Positions 31,779-38,745 of a DNA stretch of 38,876 nt are shown here, piece by piece (within the stretch, counting starts at the first letter, position 1; the number at the start of each line of letters is the position of its first letter). The stretch comes from Acidobacteriota bacterium (lineage in GTDB: Bacteria; Acidobacteriota; Blastocatellia; Chloracidobacteriales; Chloracidobacteriaceae). The notes under the pieces are model-generated. The model saw only the letters and a program-made list of their open reading frames with translations. It was not told the DNA's origin and did not search any database. The position numbers and the translations under genes are program-made. The stretch lies in the NCBI GenBank assembly GCA_016208495.1, contig JACQXX010000145.1, positions 1 through 38,876 of the forward strand, read 5' to 3'.

Positions 31779-32684
31779 TCATTCCTGAGTCTGGCTTTCA
31801 GTTTCCTTTGGATCAATGGTTGGGAAAGGTGGATACTGCAAGATGGCTTCGCGCAGGATTGAACTATCTTTGCGAAGATGGGCGTGAAACATTGTCCAAC
31901 GGAACGAAATGCTACCCGTCTTTTGTTCTCGAATAAGTCGTTCCCCAATGCGTCGAATCAATTTTTGGATTGCTTCCTGGGTTTGGACATCACAGTCTGG
32001 GTCAATTTGGTCGCTGGTTGTCACGGCTCGTTTCCACCAGATGACAGCCTTGTCCAACTGGTCACGTTGATCCAGCACACGGCCTACGCGCTCGCAAACT
32101 CTCGCCACCAGCAGCGGCTGTTCAGCCAACAAAGCCAGGATTTCTTCGAGGTGTTGAATAAAAACAGGTGACCAATCAATTGTTTCAATGGTTGCAGCAA
32201 CCTCAAGCGCCTCACAAATGACGTCCGCCTTTTTGCATAACAGTGAAAGCTGATGGGGTTCAACCGGAGTATTTTCAATGATTTGCTGGGCATTATACAG
32301 ATCACGGGCATGTGCCAGGTGGTTGGCCAGCGACAACCTGGCATGGATGAACAAAATCGGATCGCTCAACCTGTCCATAACAATTGCACTGAGATGAAAA
32401 TTCCCCATCTCGGCCTGTTGTTCGGCCAGGGCAGCCAGAAACGTGTCATTATCCAGGCAAAATTGATCAAATGCTGACCAGGCAGACAATTCCGGTCGAA
32501 TTTCGGTCGTTGTTTTTGACAGGTTCCCAGATCGTTTTGCCCCGGTGGACGCTCCAAGAAGGGCCTCGTAGGTATCGCCTTTCAGACGATTTGATTTCCC
32601 TCCTCGATAGAGTGAAGCGCCGATGAGCACTCCAAACACCGACAACAACCATGTGATGAGCAAAACCAGCATTGTCCAGGACAT
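31779..32684 (-). CDS. Membrane-anchored helical-repeat protein
   Basis: A 301-residue protein with an N-terminal membrane helix (about 3-27, LVLLITWLLSVFGVLIGASL) and a soluble, almost wholly alpha-helical remainder. Helical pairs such as AALAEQQAEMGNFHLSAIVMDR and KADVICEALEVAATIETIDW suggest degenerate TPR-like repeats, though no canonical motif is present. Function unknown. It is transcribed upstream of the serine hydrolase gene, 45 bases before that gene's chosen start. The two-hairpin element 2 lies just before its start. Confidence 0.65.
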   Translation of the reverse strand: MSWTMLVLLITWLLSVFGVLIGASLYRGGKSNRLKGDTYEALLGASTGAKRSGNLSKTTTEIRPELSAWSAFDQFCLDNDTFLAALAEQQAEMGNFHLSAIVMDRLSDPILFIHARLSLANHLAHARDLYNAQQIIENTPVEPHQLSLLCKKADVICEALEVAATIETIDWSPVFIQHLEEILALLAEQPLLVARVCERVGRVLDQRDQLDKAVIWWKRAVTTSDQIDPDCDVQTQEAIQKLIRRIGERLIREQKTGSISFRWTMFHAHLRKDSSILREAILQYPPFPTIDPKETESQTQE

Positions 32685-32828: not shown

Positions 32829-35800
32829 TTAAACTGAATCATTCATCTGCACGTCAAGCGTCGCGCCGTCTGGTCGCCCGGTCCAGATTTGAAACTGCTG
32901 AACCAGGGCGGTGGTGACTTCCTGGATGGCAGGCCGATCAGCTTGACTTGATTGATGAAGATCGAGTCTGACGATTCCCGTGAGATTGGTTTGGGCGACT
33001 CCTGGCCAGGGACGAACCTGCACCCCAAGGCACCGCTGTTCGAGCATAAGAATCTGGCCGAAAATCCGGCCTTCGAGCCAGCCCGCGACCTTGTCAAAGT
33101 CCGCGGCTAATATGACTTCGATCTGATATTGAAGGTTCAAACCGGTACCTGAAACAGCTCGAACCACTGGTTCAAACAGCCTTGACCACTGATGGCTGGT
33201 GGCGCATTCCCTTCCGCGTCGCAGCTCGTCCTTGATGAGTTGTGCGGTTGAACGCGAAATATTTCGGGCACTGTTTTGATGTGGCGCCACCGAGGTAATC
33301 ACCGGCAAGTGGTCGCGATGCGAACGAACTTTGAACGCCCGGGCACCATCGGTCAATCCGACTGGCTGTGTCCAGTCGTGTTCGTCCAACTGATTGAAAA
33401 AATTGATCATGAGCGTTTCCAGGTCTGGCACGACGTCTGGTTCCAGCTTCAGACAGACCCAGGCGGCCAGTAACGCCCAGGAAAAGCTGCCCGGAAAACC
33501 CCAGGCATTGCCGCCGATCTGTCGCCGCGCCACCCAGGCCCGAACACCACGCAGAAACTCCTGAAACAAGGTCAGGTTCATTTTCCGCGTGACACATTTC
33601 AACAATTCATCGGCTTCAAAACAGCCAACCAGATTTTGCCAGCTTGCCGGATCAAACTCGGTTTGGTGGCAGGCATCAATGGCCATCGTCATGGAAAGAG
33701 AAGCGGGGCGATGCGCCGGCATGACGTCAACGTCAACACCTTCAATTCGAACTTTGAGCAGCGACACCTGAGCATCCGTTACCACCCGCGTCATTTCCGC
33801 CAGCGGTGAGAGCCGGTTGGCCACCGATTCCAGAAATTTTCCGGCGGGTAATTCCAGCGGGATGAGGCACACGGTATCAATATCGCTTGACCGGGTGGCA
33901 ACGCCCATTCGGGAGGAGCCAACCGTTTCCAGCGTCGCCCATTCGCCCACGACTTCGACACACGCCTGATGAACCAGTTCGAGAATTGTCTCCCGATGAA
34001 TGATTTCTTCCGGAGTCAGCAGTGGTTCCAGGTCCAAAACAAGATCACTCAGGGTTGAATCACCCGCAGATTGACCCGCCGATTTTTTTCCAAGCTCAAT
34101 GTCGTGGCGCACTTCAAACGGCGTGTCACCAACCCGGCTGATAAGCGCGATGGATTCCACTTCGAATGAAACTGGATGCCAGTCAGGTAATTCGGACTGT
34201 GCTTTTTGAAACGATTCAAACTGACCGACGCTCAGATGTGGGGTAAACCCGCTGGGACGACTATTTTGCTCAGAACATTGAGGGAATAATCGAAACAGTC
34301 GTTCCTGGAGAGTATGCAAAGCACCTGGCGGGTCAACTTCGGGTTTGAGCCAGACCGTGGCATTTCGGCGATGCTCAAAATAGTCGTACTTCGTCAGCCG
34401 AATTGAAAACGGCTGAATATGTGCCAGTTCCCGCCTGATGAGTTCAGCCGCTTCGGCAAAGAGATGATCAGGTAAAAACCCATAGATCAACGTGATATGG
34501 GGCATCCAGCGATTGATTTTGCGGTCGTGCGTTCGCCGAATGTTCTGAATCGGCGGCCAGAGGTTGAGTGGCGGAATAATCACAATCGCGCTGGTGTAGA
34601 CCGGTGGCGTCAAGTGCAGGGTAGAATCGGGTTCGGGGTTCGGGGTTCGGGGTTCGGGGTTCCGGGTTAATTCGACGCCAAGTCCAAAGTGGTCAGAAAT
34701 GAAGAGCGAGCCAGAGGTGGTAGCAACGGGTTCAACTCCGAGCCTTGAAAGCTGAGCTGGGTGCCAAGTTTTCGACCGAACCCACATCCGGTCATAGCGC
34801 GATGAGTTACCCGAGCGCGAAAGTTGTGCGGCCAGGTCATTGGTCGCCGGGTCATAGGTCAAGCCTGGGTCAGTGGGGTTTAATCGTGGCCAGATGTCGT
34901 CAAAACCTTCACGTTGAAAGAGTTTATCCAGTTCGTCACCAGGCGTGTTGAAATCTCCGATCACAGCGCAATCACCGGGCAACTGATGCACATATTCAAG
35001 GAGTCTTCCAACGTAGAGCCGCCGCCGTGCTGGGGCATCCAGCGTCATACTGCTTGGCAAATGCAGCACGGCGAGGTGAAGTGGCTGACCGTTGAGCGTC
35101 CAGGTGGCAATCAGCACCCGTTTGCGGATTGAAAACCAGTGGTCAACCTGTGAAAACGGATATTTGCTCAGCACCAATACGCCGTGTGGATCAAGATTCG
35201 GAGACAGCATCGGTTCGGAAAGAAACCAGTTTGCAGTCCAATCAGCCGTTTGAATCGCCGTCAAAACAGTCGGGGTGACTTCCTGGAGCGCAATCACATC
35301 CGCCTGACAGGTTTCCAGCACTGAAAGCAGGTGGGTTGTTCGCTCGGGTGTCCTCAAATCTCCATCATCTGGAAGCTCAGCCAAAATATTGAAGGTAATG
35401 ATTTTCAGGCGCTCAGTCAGAATGGATGCCGGATTCTCTGATACCTGGTTCCAGGTTGAACCAGTTCGATGAAACACAGGTCGGGAGATACAGGCAAAGT
35501 TTGGATGGACTGACGGTGTTTCAGAAATCAGCAAACTGGTTGGGGCTGAAATTCGCTCGGGAGGTTCAACCCAGGCGGCGGCGGGGAGTTCGTCCGTTGC
35601 AAAAAGATCCAGATGCGTGTCGCGGTCCCAGACTCGGGTTTCACCGCATCGAATGAACCGCACCCGATGCCAGGGAATATCGCTGGCCACGGCCCATTCA
35701 TCCACGGTTTTTTCACGAAAACCCTCGGGTGCCAGCCGATCCTGGTAGCCAACCCGAAACGCAGCCCGATTGAGCCGCGAATCCCACAGAATCCGGCTAA

Positions 35801-35849
35801 TGATTTCGCGACTGGTACTGAGTCTGGTGCGTGACTCGTCTGAAGCCAT
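32829..35849 (-). CDS. DUF504-EEP nuclease-2H phosphoesterase-poly(A) polymerase fusion
   Basis: A 1006-residue predicted RNA-end-processing enzyme. Domain 1 (6-80): DUF504/UPF0248 (IISRILWDSRLN, IPWHRVRFI, VWDRDTHLDL). Domain 2 (148-395): endonuclease/exonuclease/phosphatase fold with ITFNIL, E190 in LQE, GDFN at 298-301 and SDH at 385-387. Residues 396-408 are a P-E-P linker made from GGGTTCG heptamers. Domain 3 (about 412-590): 2H phosphoesterase with H451-x-T453 and H538-x-S540. Domain 4 (about 610-1000): poly(A)-polymerase-type nucleotidyltransferase with GSSRMG at 644-649, the D656/D658 pair and a third acid near 706-708, then WGFPGSFSWALL and LPVITSVAPHQNSARN, which match the eukaryotic PAP central domain. 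Start ATG 35849 chosen; upstream codons are GAATGAA repeats. Confidence 0.9.
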   Translation of the reverse strand: MASDESRTRLSTSREIISRILWDSRLNRAAFRVGYQDRLAPEGFREKTVDEWAVASDIPWHRVRFIRCGETRVWDRDTHLDLFATDELPAAAWVEPPERISAPTSLLISETPSVHPNFACISRPVFHRTGSTWNQVSENPASILTERLKIITFNILAELPDDGDLRTPERTTHLLSVLETCQADVIALQEVTPTVLTAIQTADWTANWFLSEPMLSPNLDPHGVLVLSKYPFSQVDHWFSIRKRVLIATWTLNGQPLHLAVLHLPSSMTLDAPARRRLYVGRLLEYVHQLPGDCAVIGDFNTPGDELDKLFQREGFDDIWPRLNPTDPGLTYDPATNDLAAQLSRSGNSSRYDRMWVRSKTWHPAQLSRLGVEPVATTSGSLFISDHFGLGVELTRNPEPRTPNPEPDSTLHLTPPVYTSAIVIIPPLNLWPPIQNIRRTHDRKINRWMPHITLIYGFLPDHLFAEAAELIRRELAHIQPFSIRLTKYDYFEHRRNATVWLKPEVDPPGALHTLQERLFRLFPQCSEQNSRPSGFTPHLSVGQFESFQKAQSELPDWHPVSFEVESIALISRVGDTPFEVRHDIELGKKSAGQSAGDSTLSDLVLDLEPLLTPEEIIHRETILELVHQACVEVVGEWATLETVGSSRMGVATRSSDIDTVCLIPLELPAGKFLESVANRLSPLAEMTRVVTDAQVSLLKVRIEGVDVDVMPAHRPASLSMTMAIDACHQTEFDPASWQNLVGCFEADELLKCVTRKMNLTLFQEFLRGVRAWVARRQIGGNAWGFPGSFSWALLAAWVCLKLEPDVVPDLETLMINFFNQLDEHDWTQPVGLTDGARAFKVRSHRDHLPVITSVAPHQNSARNISRSTAQLIKDELRRGRECATSHQWSRLFEPVVRAVSGTGLNLQYQIEVILAADFDKVAGWLEGRIFGQILMLEQRCLGVQVRPWPGVAQTNLTGIVRLDLHQSSQADRPAIQEVTTALVQQFQIWTGRPDGATLDVQMNDSV
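34629..34668 (-). repeat. In-frame heptamer tract in the RNA-repair fusion
   Basis: About five GGGTTCG units (plus strand) inside the gene, encoding the proline/glutamate-rich linker at residues 396-408 between the EEP and 2H domains. The same heptamer family is otherwise found only between genes in this window. Confidence 0.75.
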
Positions 35850-36154
35850 AAAGAATGAAGAATGAAGAATGAAGAATGAAGAATGAAGAATTGAGAATGA
35901 CCTGAATTTTGCCCCAAATAGCACCCTGTTGCGCAAAGATCAGTGCCGACCAGGTCGGGGCACCAATTGCACGCGGGAAGCTCCCGGTCATTCAGTGGAA
36001 TCGAAGTTCACCAAAATCGAGCCTTCGCCGTGACAAAACCGACTTCCACCCTGTCCTTTATGCCCTTTGGTTCGGGCTCAATCAACAACCCGATATCCTG
36101 AACCCTAATTGGTATTATTTGATTTTTTTCGTGTTTTTCGTGGTGAGTGGAGAG
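35850..36154. other. Repeat-containing intergenic region
   Basis: About 300 bases between the RNA-repair gene and the CHAT gene. It holds five or more GAATGAA heptamers at 35851-35900, directly upstream of the RNA-repair gene start, a TTTTTTTCGTGTTTTTCGTGG tract near 36123, and no credible gene. Confidence 0.5.
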
Positions 36155-38104
36155 CTATTTCCCTTCCAGGTTTGTCCACCCACCTGATTGAATGAACGCC
36201 GCCCAGTAAAATGGATGCCGCCGCCTTGGATCCTTGAGCATTTTGAGTTGAGTATGGCGCAACGCTTCGGAACGTCCTTCACCCTTTTTCAAGCGGGTGT
36301 AGTACTCCACCATCAGTTCGCGCGTTCCGGCATCCGACACCGGCCAGAGACTCATCATTTGCGCCTCGCTGCCGGCCAGGACCAGCGCCCGGCGTAGCCC
36401 GTAGACCCCATCACCATTTTTGACATCGCCCAGCCCGGTATCGCAGGCGGAAAGCACGACCAGTTTGGTGCCCCACAGATTCAGTTGGGCGGCTTCCAGA
36501 GCCGTCAGCGTCCCGTCATCTTCCGGGTTGGTGCCGCCGGTGTTGGCGTCCGTAAAAAAGAGGCACGAACGCAGGAGCGGGTTTGACTGACGCAGATTTT
36601 CGGTGTCCATCGGCAGTTGACCTTCTTCCGAAGTCAAGCCCGGTGGTGTGGTGTGGTCCAGCGGTGACTTTTCCGGTGCGTCTTCCAGAAAAGAGCCGTG
36701 GGTGGCAATGTGAACAAAAACGGGTCTGATGACGGCTTTGAGTGTTTCTTCCGTCGCTTCCAGGTTCATTTTCAGTGTCGTATCGGGAAAGATGGCTTTG
36801 AGTTGATTGCCTTCTTGCGTGGTTCCCCGAAGTTGAGAAAGCGGAGCCAACACTTTTCCCATCAGCACCGGCCCCCGACCGTTTCCAAAGGTCGGATTGG
36901 CCATCACGAATGGTGGTTCATGACTGTCGATTTTGACTTGCAGCCGCAATAAATCCCGCCCGCTGGTCAGGTAGGTCAAAAGGTAATTTTCCGTCAAATA
37001 TTTCCCGTTCTTATCTGTCAGAACACCAAACGGAATCAGGTTCAGGTCTCCATCCGGTGAAATCAACAGGTGTTGGGTGGTACCAAGCATCTTCCTGACC
37101 GGTTCAAAGATGAGTTTCCCAAGTTGATGTCCAAGGACTTTGACATTGGTTTGAGTGGATCCTCGTCCAGACGTCAGAGGGGCAAAGCTGCGTTTCCGGG
37201 ACCAGACATCCGCCGAGGTTTTGGTGCTCACCGCGCGACGAAATGCCGCCACTGCTTTGTCAATCGGCTCGGCTTCACCCAGGTCGGCAAATCGGATTTC
37301 CCCACTTTGGTTGAGCAGATACACGACATATCGGGGGGTTCCGGATTTTTTTATTTTGGCATCATAAGGTCGGTATACGGCATATTCCAAAAGGCTTGCC
37401 CTGGGTGGAATACATTGTTGAATGCCGTTCAGGGTAATCGGTGTCACCTGGGTTTTGAATTCGGCGCTCCGGGCGCTGATCTCAGCTTCCAGTTTTTCCT
37501 TGTGGTTTTCCAACTCGCGCAAATTGGCCAGATGCGCTTCCGGCTGCTTTTTTCCAGGACCTCGGAGCGTCAAAACCGAGATTTGGCTTGCCAGAGCAGA
37601 ATACCCATCCAGCAGTTTTTGAATCTCGGGACTTTGCTGATTCCGCAAAATCTCCAGGGTGCTGGTCATGGCGTCCAGCGCCCGCCCTTTACGTCGCAGA
37701 ATCACCGTCAGGGCAGCCTTGAGCGCTTCCGCCGTGTGCGGCGCAGCCTGGACTTGCAAAGAAATGGTTGCATCGGTGTTGCTTTCGGTTTTTTTCAGAT
37801 ACAGCGCTTTTTGGCGTTCGGAACCGGAAACGAGATTGCGAACCAGGTCGCGTTCGGTGGTGTCGTTGCTGCGTGTCAGAAACTGAATGGCCTGAGCCGT
37901 TTCGCCGTTGGCGTGGTACAGCAAAGCCAGGTTGTTGAGGCTTTGGGCCACCTCCGGGTGGTTTGGCCCCAACACCTTCTCCCGAATGGCCAGTGCCCGC
38001 TCATAGAGCGGCTCCGCCCTGGTGGAGTTACAGCACAACCAGGTCGTTGAGACTGAGGGCCACGAGAAGGTGCTCTCCGCCAAAGGCTTTTTCACTCTTT
38101 TCAA
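36155..38104 (-). pseudogene. CHAT-domain protease, 3' part (frameshifted from TPR part)
   Basis: A 649-codon frame holding the main part of a PPC-TPR-CHAT protein. The first about 26 residues are out-of-frame reading; genuine homology begins at TRAEPLYERALAIREKVLGPNHPEVAQSLNNLALLY, a TPR. A helical/coiled region (about 120-220) leads to the CHAT caspase-like domain (about 320-645). The catalytic dyad is the histidine in HIATHG (H469) and the cysteine in LSACDTG (C554). CHAT proteases act in bacterial death and immunity pathways. This part has no start of its own with a ribosome site, so expression needs the frameshift at about 38033 to be bypassed. Confidence 0.8.
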
Positions 38105-38660
38105 GCGCCTGGGTAGCTAATGGCAAACACTCATTGTACTTGCCGGCCTGACGGAGCCTTGCAGCCTTGACCAGCAGGGTATTCACTTCATATTCCGCCT
38201 GGTCCTGCTCGGTGGCTGCCCGTGGCGTTTCCAATTTCACGTCATACTTTCCAGCCAAAGCGGTTTGGTCGGGGGCTTCAACTTCAATTTGATAGGTTCC
38301 AGCTTTTTCTGAGATAAAAGAAAGAAGTTCTGGGCCCTGGATGCCGTTTGGACTGTCCACTTCCTGGATGACTTTTCCATCCGGCCCAATCAGCCGCACG
38401 ACCACATCAATCCCGCGTTGCTCCACGACCAGTTTCACATAGTCGTTGGCTTTGAGCGGCAACGGGTAGGTGTGTTTTTCACCGCCGTTCAGGGCTCGGG
38501 GTTCGGGGGAAATAAATGGCTGGGGGCTAGAAGCTGAAGCTTGGGATTCTTTCTGGGCTTTGGCTGGCTGGCTCTGTTTGGCCTGGGCAAAAAATGGCAT
38601 TGGAAAGATCAAGGCTCCAATCATCGCCACCGCCGTGAAGTGTTTCATCCGCCTCATCAT
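38028..38660 (-). pseudogene. PPC/TPR 5' part of the CHAT gene
   Basis: A 210-residue frame with a signal peptide (HFTAVAMIGALIFPMPFFAQA), a Pro/Ser/Ala linker, a PPC-like beta domain (about 60-150: GEKHTYPLPLKANDYVKLVVEQRGIDVVVRLIGPDGK, split) and the start of a TPR (LRQAGKYNECLPLATQALEKSEKAFGG), then LNDLVVL-stop at 38028. The continuing TPR is in another frame directly after. By comparison with TPR spacing, six to ten residues are missing as well, so a small deletion rather than one base is likely. I chose ATG 38660, which has AGGAG seven bases upstream; the longer frame reads the upstream repeat. Confidence 0.75.
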
Positions 38661-38680
38661 CTTTGTTCTCCTCATTGAAA

Positions 38681-38745
38681 ATACCACTTTGCAATGAATA
38701 TTTTGTATTAGGAAACAGTCAAGTAATTCAATCAAATAAACTTAG
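38681..38745 (-). repeat. 65 bp dispersed repeat, copy C (upstream of CHAT gene)
   Basis: Inverted copy of the repeat at 8049-8113, of identical length and about 83% identity by my count. It ends 20 bases before the CHAT gene start. The ACTTGACTGTTT core and the TTGCAAAGTGGTAT tail are conserved. Confidence 0.75.

Follow-up and report, generated by a model that had tools for sequence, protein, structure and literature searches.

We analysed a 38,876-nucleotide stretch of DNA from an Acidobacteriota bacterium of the class Blastocatellia (assembly GCA_016208495.1, contig JACQXX010000145.1, positions 1 to 38,876; referred to here as the window) and focused on one gene that encodes a fusion protein of 1006 residues. 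An earlier reading of the letters of this DNA (the original prediction) had placed this protein at 32829-35849 and had described it as a join of the families DUF504, EEP, 2H and poly(A) polymerase (PAP) with a role in RNA repair. Translation showed that the coordinates, the minus strand and the length were exact, and the gene and its domains lie in the window as follows.

32829..35849, minus strand: whole fusion gene, 1006 aa, from the ATG start at 35849 to the stop codon (by translation).
35622..35819, minus strand: MJ1316 (DUF504) domain, residues 11-76, a putative reader of 2',3'-cyclic RNA ends (PF04457, 7e-15).
34689..35399, minus strand: EEP domain, residues 151-387, TDP2-like (PF03372, Exo_endo_phos, 6e-18; TDP2 fold match).
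34125..34574, minus strand: 2H phosphoesterase domain, residues 426-575, with the motifs H451-I-T453 and H538-L-S540 (PF13563, 2_5_RNA_ligase2, 4e-35).
32832..34064, minus strand: complete class I PAP, residues 596-1006 (PF04928, 2e-19; alignment to 1f5a and 4lt6; fold match).

The open frame continues upstream of the ATG to a TTG at 35936, and because this extension crosses a repeated low-complexity stretch, we took the ATG at 35849 as the sensible start. A short tandem repeat of the ttcattc type occupies window positions 35850-35900 (minus strand), directly before the start codon. All four predicted families were recovered by Pfam above the curated cut-off (MJ1316, 55.9 vs 26.3 bits; Exo_endo_phos, 65.9 vs 24.5 bits; 2_5_RNA_ligase2 and PAP_central), while PAP_NTPase (residues 640-713) scored slightly below it (2e-5; 25.1 vs 27 bits). 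No Pfam match to PAP_RNA-bind was found in the window protein, although the fold alignment covers the C-terminal region of PAP that resembles an RNA recognition motif. The PAP half is thus arranged as a nucleotidyltransferase palm (D656, D658 and D708), PAP_central at residues 762-893, and then a C-terminal region over which the alignment reaches as far as the terminus of eukaryotic PAPs. Both HxT/S motifs of the 2H domain that had been predicted are present in the protein, as are the GS-x-D-x-D pattern and the eukaryotic-style PAP central segment; the PAP central domain was found by its hidden Markov model, and the aspartates of that pattern fell on active-site positions when aligned to 1f5a.

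To compare the protein with solved structures, we searched by sequence and by predicted fold. Eukaryotic PAPs were matched at ~1e-25 with the single sequence and at 2e-68 with a 29-row profile; the EEP part matched TDP2 and the 2H part matched the protein of entry 2d4g, and CCR4-NOT subunits and nocturnin, which are deadenylase-type EEP proteins, were among the weaker profile matches. The alignment pairs D656, D658 and D708 with the active-site aspartates of 1f5a, a mammalian PAP; the first two of these are 113 and 115 (counted from the alignment) and the third is presumably 167. An AlphaFold2 model built from the 29 rows had a mean predicted local distance difference test score (pLDDT) of 88.1 and a predicted template modelling score (pTM) of 0.50, and the domains are therefore reliable predictions, unlike their positions relative to one another. 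Residues 596-1006 of the model superimposed on residues 33-490 of 4lt6_B, human PAP gamma, with Z 37.2 and a root-mean-square deviation (rmsd) of 2.8 over 400 residues, and residues 144-397 superimposed on human TDP2 with Z 28.1 and an rmsd of 2.1 over 235 residues. By both profile and fold, the EEP domain was closer to TDP2 than to CCR4. The MJ1316 and 2H parts gave no match in the structural re-ranking, a procedure that hardly tested these parts. Because residues 596-1006 align over the whole fold of human PAP gamma, the C-terminal part is that of a complete PAP, a result that did not emerge from Pfam. The catalytic aspartates and the whole fold of this half are alike to those of the canonical eukaryotic PAPs (4lt6, 1f5a, 1fa0); in contrast to these, it is bacterial, stands behind three RNA-end domains, and is only 22-24% identical to them over the structural alignments.

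Relatives of the fusion were collected by an alignment-based scan of named genomes, the counts of which are lower bounds; a search of genome contigs with the single protein found none, and the alignment search found them. Of the 80 loci listed, 54 carry the fusion, with an open frame of 690 aa or longer, and the other 26 (partial, truncated or EEP-only) were dropped before counting. Together with four loci from a plasmid collection, this made 58 loci, and with the window and two other genomes of the class, G051 and G339, 61 full-length fusions. Among the matches listed, relatives occur in the class of the window, in cyanobacteria, Myxococcota and Bacteroidota, and mostly in actinomycetes. Within the class, MJ1316 was found in 3/162 genomes, each time within an open frame longer than 1000 aa, and the other two fusions are 42% and 39% identical to the window protein. 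In the genome of the window, the fusion is the sole MJ1316 match at E <= 0.001, and among 14 well-known control genomes the domain was matched in two archaea only. In a tree of 59 of the 61 fusions (the frameshifted L047 and L075 were left out), the window protein fell into a group of 12 with rows from its class, Bacteroidota and cyanobacteria (support 99); since branches inside this group are long or weak, we claim no donor. One Calothrix strain carries two copies (L014 and L049), one on a plasmid typed as conjugative and the other on the chromosome, where the frame stops at 894 aa and the match continues past the stop. A viral or phage origin was rejected, as no match at E 1e-5 was obtained in 50,697 phage records and none was confirmed in one scan of viral contigs.

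To assess which positions are conserved, we counted motifs and domains in 36 aligned members, including the window protein, that were picked for spread from the 61 fusions. MJ1316 (E <= 0.001), EEP and PAP_central were present in 36/36, and 2H was present in 31/36. The MJ1316 residues I58, P59, H61, R62, W74, D75 and R76 were invariant. In the EEP domain, N154, E190, H263, D299, N301, D353, D386 and H387 were kept in all 36 members and D333 in 32; these include N154, E190, D299, N301, D386 and H387, which we take to be the catalytic set (N, E, D, N, D, H), and the metal ligands had thus been read correctly from the letters. The two histidines of the 2H domain (H451 and H538) were kept in 31/31 members that have it; the first motif is HxT in the window protein, with T at position 453 in 10 members and N in the other 21, and the second motif is HxK in one. 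The PAP residues G644, S645 and D656 were kept in 36/36 members, and D658 and D708 in 35/36 each. The conservation of these catalytic positions speaks for active EEP and PAP domains in almost every member, and for an active 2H domain wherever there is one, an activity predicted here from sequence. Five Streptomyces fusions (L072, L073, L074, L076 and L077), which form one clade in the tree, are three-domain proteins without 2H, and a sixth, frameshifted locus (L075) likewise had no 2H match. Separately, stand-alone 2H relatives exist in two further genomes of the phylum (L005 and L006), as open frames of 236 aa and 189 aa that are 42% identical to the 2H domain of the fusion.

We then examined the genes next to the fusion. 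Among the 58 loci, an RNA-ligase/kinase sequence lies directly upstream on the same strand in 48, namely in 44/46 actinomycete loci and in 4/12 others. The distance from the stop of the ligase/kinase to the start of the fusion ranged from -14 to 221 bases, and the genes overlap in 25/48; in three of the 48 (L039, L043 and L051), the end of the contig cuts the locus and the ligase part is missing or incomplete. The 44 actinomycete loci have one upstream gene in which an RNA ligase (PF09414) is fused to an AAA_33 kinase (two of these were examined with Pfam, and the others were assigned by their similarity to the two), and the four cyanobacterial loci have separate ligase and HD-kinase genes upstream. 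The ten loci without an upstream ligase/kinase (L014, L029, L032, L033, L034, L035, L036, L040, L049 and L070) represent nine genomes, as L014 and L049 are the Calothrix copies; four of the nine have a strong ligase and HD-kinase pair elsewhere, and two have a strong HD-kinase together with an actinomycete-type ligase. No tRNA genes, and hence no tRNA array next to the fusion, were found in the window or in 31 loci examined.

In the genome of the window, a methyltransferase, an RNA ligase and an HD-kinase lie in a row near the end of another contig (C107), whereas the fusion is on C145; in G339 and G051 the ligase is likewise on a different contig from the fusion. The ligase matches PF09414 (2e-35) and carries the motif EEKVDGAN, and the kinase matches AAA_33 (9e-21) and the Pnkp kinase part (5e-8, far below the curated cut-off). 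The motif I lysine is present in all three ligases of the class genomes with a fusion, and the P-loop is readable in their three kinases, with Asp at the usual Ser/Thr place. Across the class, 11/162 genomes have the ligase (E < 1e-90), and these same genomes have the HD-kinase (E < 1e-80); all three genomes with a fusion are among them (Fisher p 2.4e-4; 0.0035 without the genome of the window; kinship ignored). The methyltransferase accompanies ligase and HD-kinase in 10 of these 11, no relative of it being found in G051; it matched other or general methyltransferase models only, with all NCBIfam matches below cut-off and no Hen1-specific match. A methyltransferase, an RNA ligase and an HD-kinase stand in a row at L108:5461-8394 and L109:5025-7644. 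A known repair system follows the same logic of ligase, kinase and methyltransferase, with other phosphatase and kinase families, and no EEP, 2H or PAP is named for it in the account used here.

A similar association was found in a cyanobacterial order, in which MJ1316 occurs in 18/243 genomes (14 of them with an open frame of 968 aa or more) and the ligase (E up to 1e-20) in 33/243. The ligase was present in 15 of the 18 MJ1316 genomes (Fisher p 2e-12; 9e-11 without two genomes already known; kinship ignored). As the two lie within 3 kb of each other in only 5/15 genomes that have both, this association does not reflect linkage alone. The RNA-repair role that had been proposed thus gains independent support: genes for an RNA ligase and a kinase either sit immediately upstream of relatives or are found at other places in the genomes that carry them. 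The structure prediction and genome survey put forward with that proposal gave, respectively, PAP and TDP2 folds (Z 37 and Z 28) and many fusion relatives with a ligase/kinase directly upstream. The fusion was read correctly as a real protein, but its framing as a single enzyme missed the partners, which lie on another contig of the same genome.

Taken together, these results suggest that, in a bacterial RNA repair system, the fusion probably forms the module that remodels 3' ends; the other half of the system would be the RNA ligase and the putative 5'-OH polynucleotide kinase. The analysis shows the domains, the conserved catalytic positions, the PAP and TDP2 folds and the neighbourhood or co-occurrence with ligase and kinase; the reactions, their order, the RNA target and the joint working of the parts we infer. 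One source, citing the 2016 survey of Burroughs and Aravind, credits MJ1316 with the recognition of 2',3'-cyclic ends and notes its fusions to RNA repair domains in eukaryotes (PMC6514570). For phage repair, another states that cyclic ends are believed to be cleared by 2H enzymes and that kinases and phosphoesterases ready ends for ATP-grasp ligases (PMC7824862). In the proposed series, an RNase would leave a 2',3'-cyclic phosphate and a 5'-OH; the cyclic end would be held by the MJ1316 domain and opened by the 2H domain, and a 3'-OH may then be produced when the EEP domain takes off the remaining phosphate or the terminal nucleotide(s). The PAP half could re-add nucleotide(s), after which the partner kinase would phosphorylate the 5' end and the ATP-dependent RNA ligase would seal the break.

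Several observations weigh against this interpretation. The listed sample is rich in Streptomyces, and direct linkage is largely an actinomycete feature that is seen in 0/3 class genomes. Furthermore, no convincing ligase/kinase pair was found in three of the nine unlinked genomes (Myxococcus, Citreicoccus and Streptomyces sp. ISL-100), the ligase was not found in 3/18 cyanobacterial MJ1316 genomes, and no separate 2H gene was found in the six loci whose fusions gave no 2H match. The Fisher tests ignore kinship, and a non-templated PAP has no evident means to limit its additions or to choose the correct base. In addition, the ligase occurs without the fusion in 8/11 genomes in the class and without MJ1316 in 18/33 genomes in the cyanobacterial order; because most ligase genomes do without it, the fusion is an add-on that the ligase/kinase core does not require. 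The state of the HD site in genomes outside the class, given below, also counts on this side.

The partner kinase resembles the HD-Pnk end-healing enzymes, of which the Runella enzyme is one, in its C-terminal AAA_33/Pnkp-like kinase and in an HD-like N-terminal part, which gave a Pfam match in G051 only, below cut-off. It differs from them in that the partner in the genome of the window has lost two HD-site residues and is accompanied by a ligase, a methyltransferase and the distant four-domain fusion. By alignment, the first His is replaced by Gln and HD by RD in the genome of the window (G000), EN replaces HD in G339, and Gln replaces a later His in G051. The HD site is thus damaged in 3/3 class genomes with the fusion and intact in 8/8 without it, a split with a chance of 1 in 165 (calculated by hand, kinship ignored), and the losses differ from genome to genome, as expected of independent decay. 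In these class genomes it looks, from the aligned residues, as if the fusion had taken over 3'-end healing from a decayed HD site. Outside the class, the HD site is intact in 10/10 fusion genomes that have a separate HD-kinase (six cyanobacterial genomes, Nannocystis, Catellatospora, Microscilla and a Cytophagales bacterium). No conserved HD pair was found across 42 fused actinomycete ligase-kinases. A degenerate HD domain in these proteins was rejected as a candidate, and since its probability in a profile comparison was <1%, we limit the claim for their middle part to the lack of a conserved HD pair.

We also considered a more specific version of the repair reading, which we put forward tentatively and hold to be rather doubtful. 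Here the system would be a 'heal, refill and seal' machine that replaces lost nucleotides, unlike the T4-type heal-and-reseal; it would answer RloC-type excision, and the older HD 3'-phosphatase would have decayed in some fusion lineages as the fusion replaced it. RloC excises the wobble nucleotide, and in the portion of that work we cite, its authors argue that the lesion could defy phage tRNA repair (PMC2610378). A repair set that bears a polymerase could refill such gaps because it has its own nucleotide-adding enzyme.

Among the alternatives to RNA repair, tagging for decay survives best and is nevertheless unlikely. The protein would clean a broken 3' end and the PAP tail would direct the fragment to exonucleases, in competition with repair. 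In bacteria, poly(A) tails favour decay of RNA, the PAP half constitutes a whole class I polymerase, and the matches to CCR4-NOT subunits and nocturnin, although weaker, point the same way; however, the neighbourhood and co-occurrence with ligase and kinase suit sealing better, and the EEP domain is closer to TDP2 than to CCR4. Somewhat less probable still is a housekeeping role without damage, in which a particular RNA 3' end would be matured by Usb1-like trimming and re-tailing. Usb1 is a 2H enzyme. It processes the U6 RNA end and has cyclic phosphodiesterase activity in yeast, according to the part of the source used here (PMC5591277). The patchy distribution of MJ1316, found in 3/162 class and 18/243 cyanobacterial-order genomes, is ill-suited to such a role.

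The likeness of the EEP domain to TDP2, a DNA end cleaner, raises the further alternative that the protein cleans ends at breaks in DNA or RNA-DNA, in which case the HD-kinase would heal DNA ends; a Deinococcus HD-Pnk is linked to radiation and mitomycin C resistance in the title of a paper cited by PMC9146567. This we consider improbable, as MJ1316, 2H and PAP are families of RNA-end proteins and the ligase falls into the RNA_ligase family PF09414. Finally, a nucleotide-signal defence, in which the PAP half would be a cyclase as in cyclic-oligonucleotide-based antiphage signalling systems (CBASS) and 2H and EEP would degrade its product, is very improbable, since the cyclase-model matches were weak (NCBIfam 1e-5, 24.8 vs a cut-off of 200 bits; PADLOC 5e-5) and this candidate was rejected on a fold that matches a complete eukaryotic PAP to the C-terminus (Z 37), none of 10 neighbouring window genes given to Pfam was effector-like, and PADLOC gave nothing for the ligase, the kinase, the ligase-kinase or the gene downstream of the fusion (gene X, below) and one weak match for the methyltransferase.

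A candidate extra part of the favoured RNA repair system is the gene that follows the fusion.

31779..32684, minus strand: gene X, 301 aa, candidate extra part, the next gene downstream of the fusion.

Gene X had no Pfam match, and its single-sequence model was all-helical with a hydrophobic N-terminal helix at low confidence (pLDDT 51). A relative was found in one other of the 162 class genomes, G051 (2e-11; 27% over the alignment); there the RNA ligase gene directly precedes it, at a distance of 18 bases. Its position beside the fusion in the window and beside the RNA ligase in G051 makes gene X a candidate further part. Elsewhere in the window, a TPR-CHAT frame (36155-38104, minus strand) and an upstream PPC-TPR frame (38028-38735, minus strand) share an out-of-frame overlap, as would be expected of a single TPR-CHAT gene broken in two by a frameshift.

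Neither the parts nor the overall repair logic is new. The 2016 survey of Burroughs and Aravind (NAR 44:8525) reportedly lists RNA ligase, 5'-kinase, cyclic-end phosphoesterases, nucleotidyltransferase and methyltransferase as repair parts, and reportedly covers fusions of MJ1316 with 2H, EEP and nucleotidyltransferases; the present case differs from those systems in that a single chain joins EEP, 2H and a full eukaryotic-type PAP to a putative reader of cyclic ends. Our literature search returned general accounts only, none of which we recognised as describing the four-domain architecture, and that survey may already draw it. The present analysis contributes the genomic context of the fusion, its co-occurrence in trans with ligase and kinase, the completeness of the PAP fold, the decay of the HD site, and gene X. 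No NCBIfam family was above cut-off for three fusions tried, and one annotated relative carries only the name 'RNA 2',3'-cyclic phosphodiesterase'; the results give a fuller meaning to a protein annotated merely in this way and provide a concrete partner set of ligase, kinase, fusion and sometimes methyltransferase. If the repair reading is true, bacteria would rebuild RNA 3' ends with a complete eukaryotic-type PAP before ligation, and whether cells undo a nucleotide-excising attack on tRNA would become a directly testable question.

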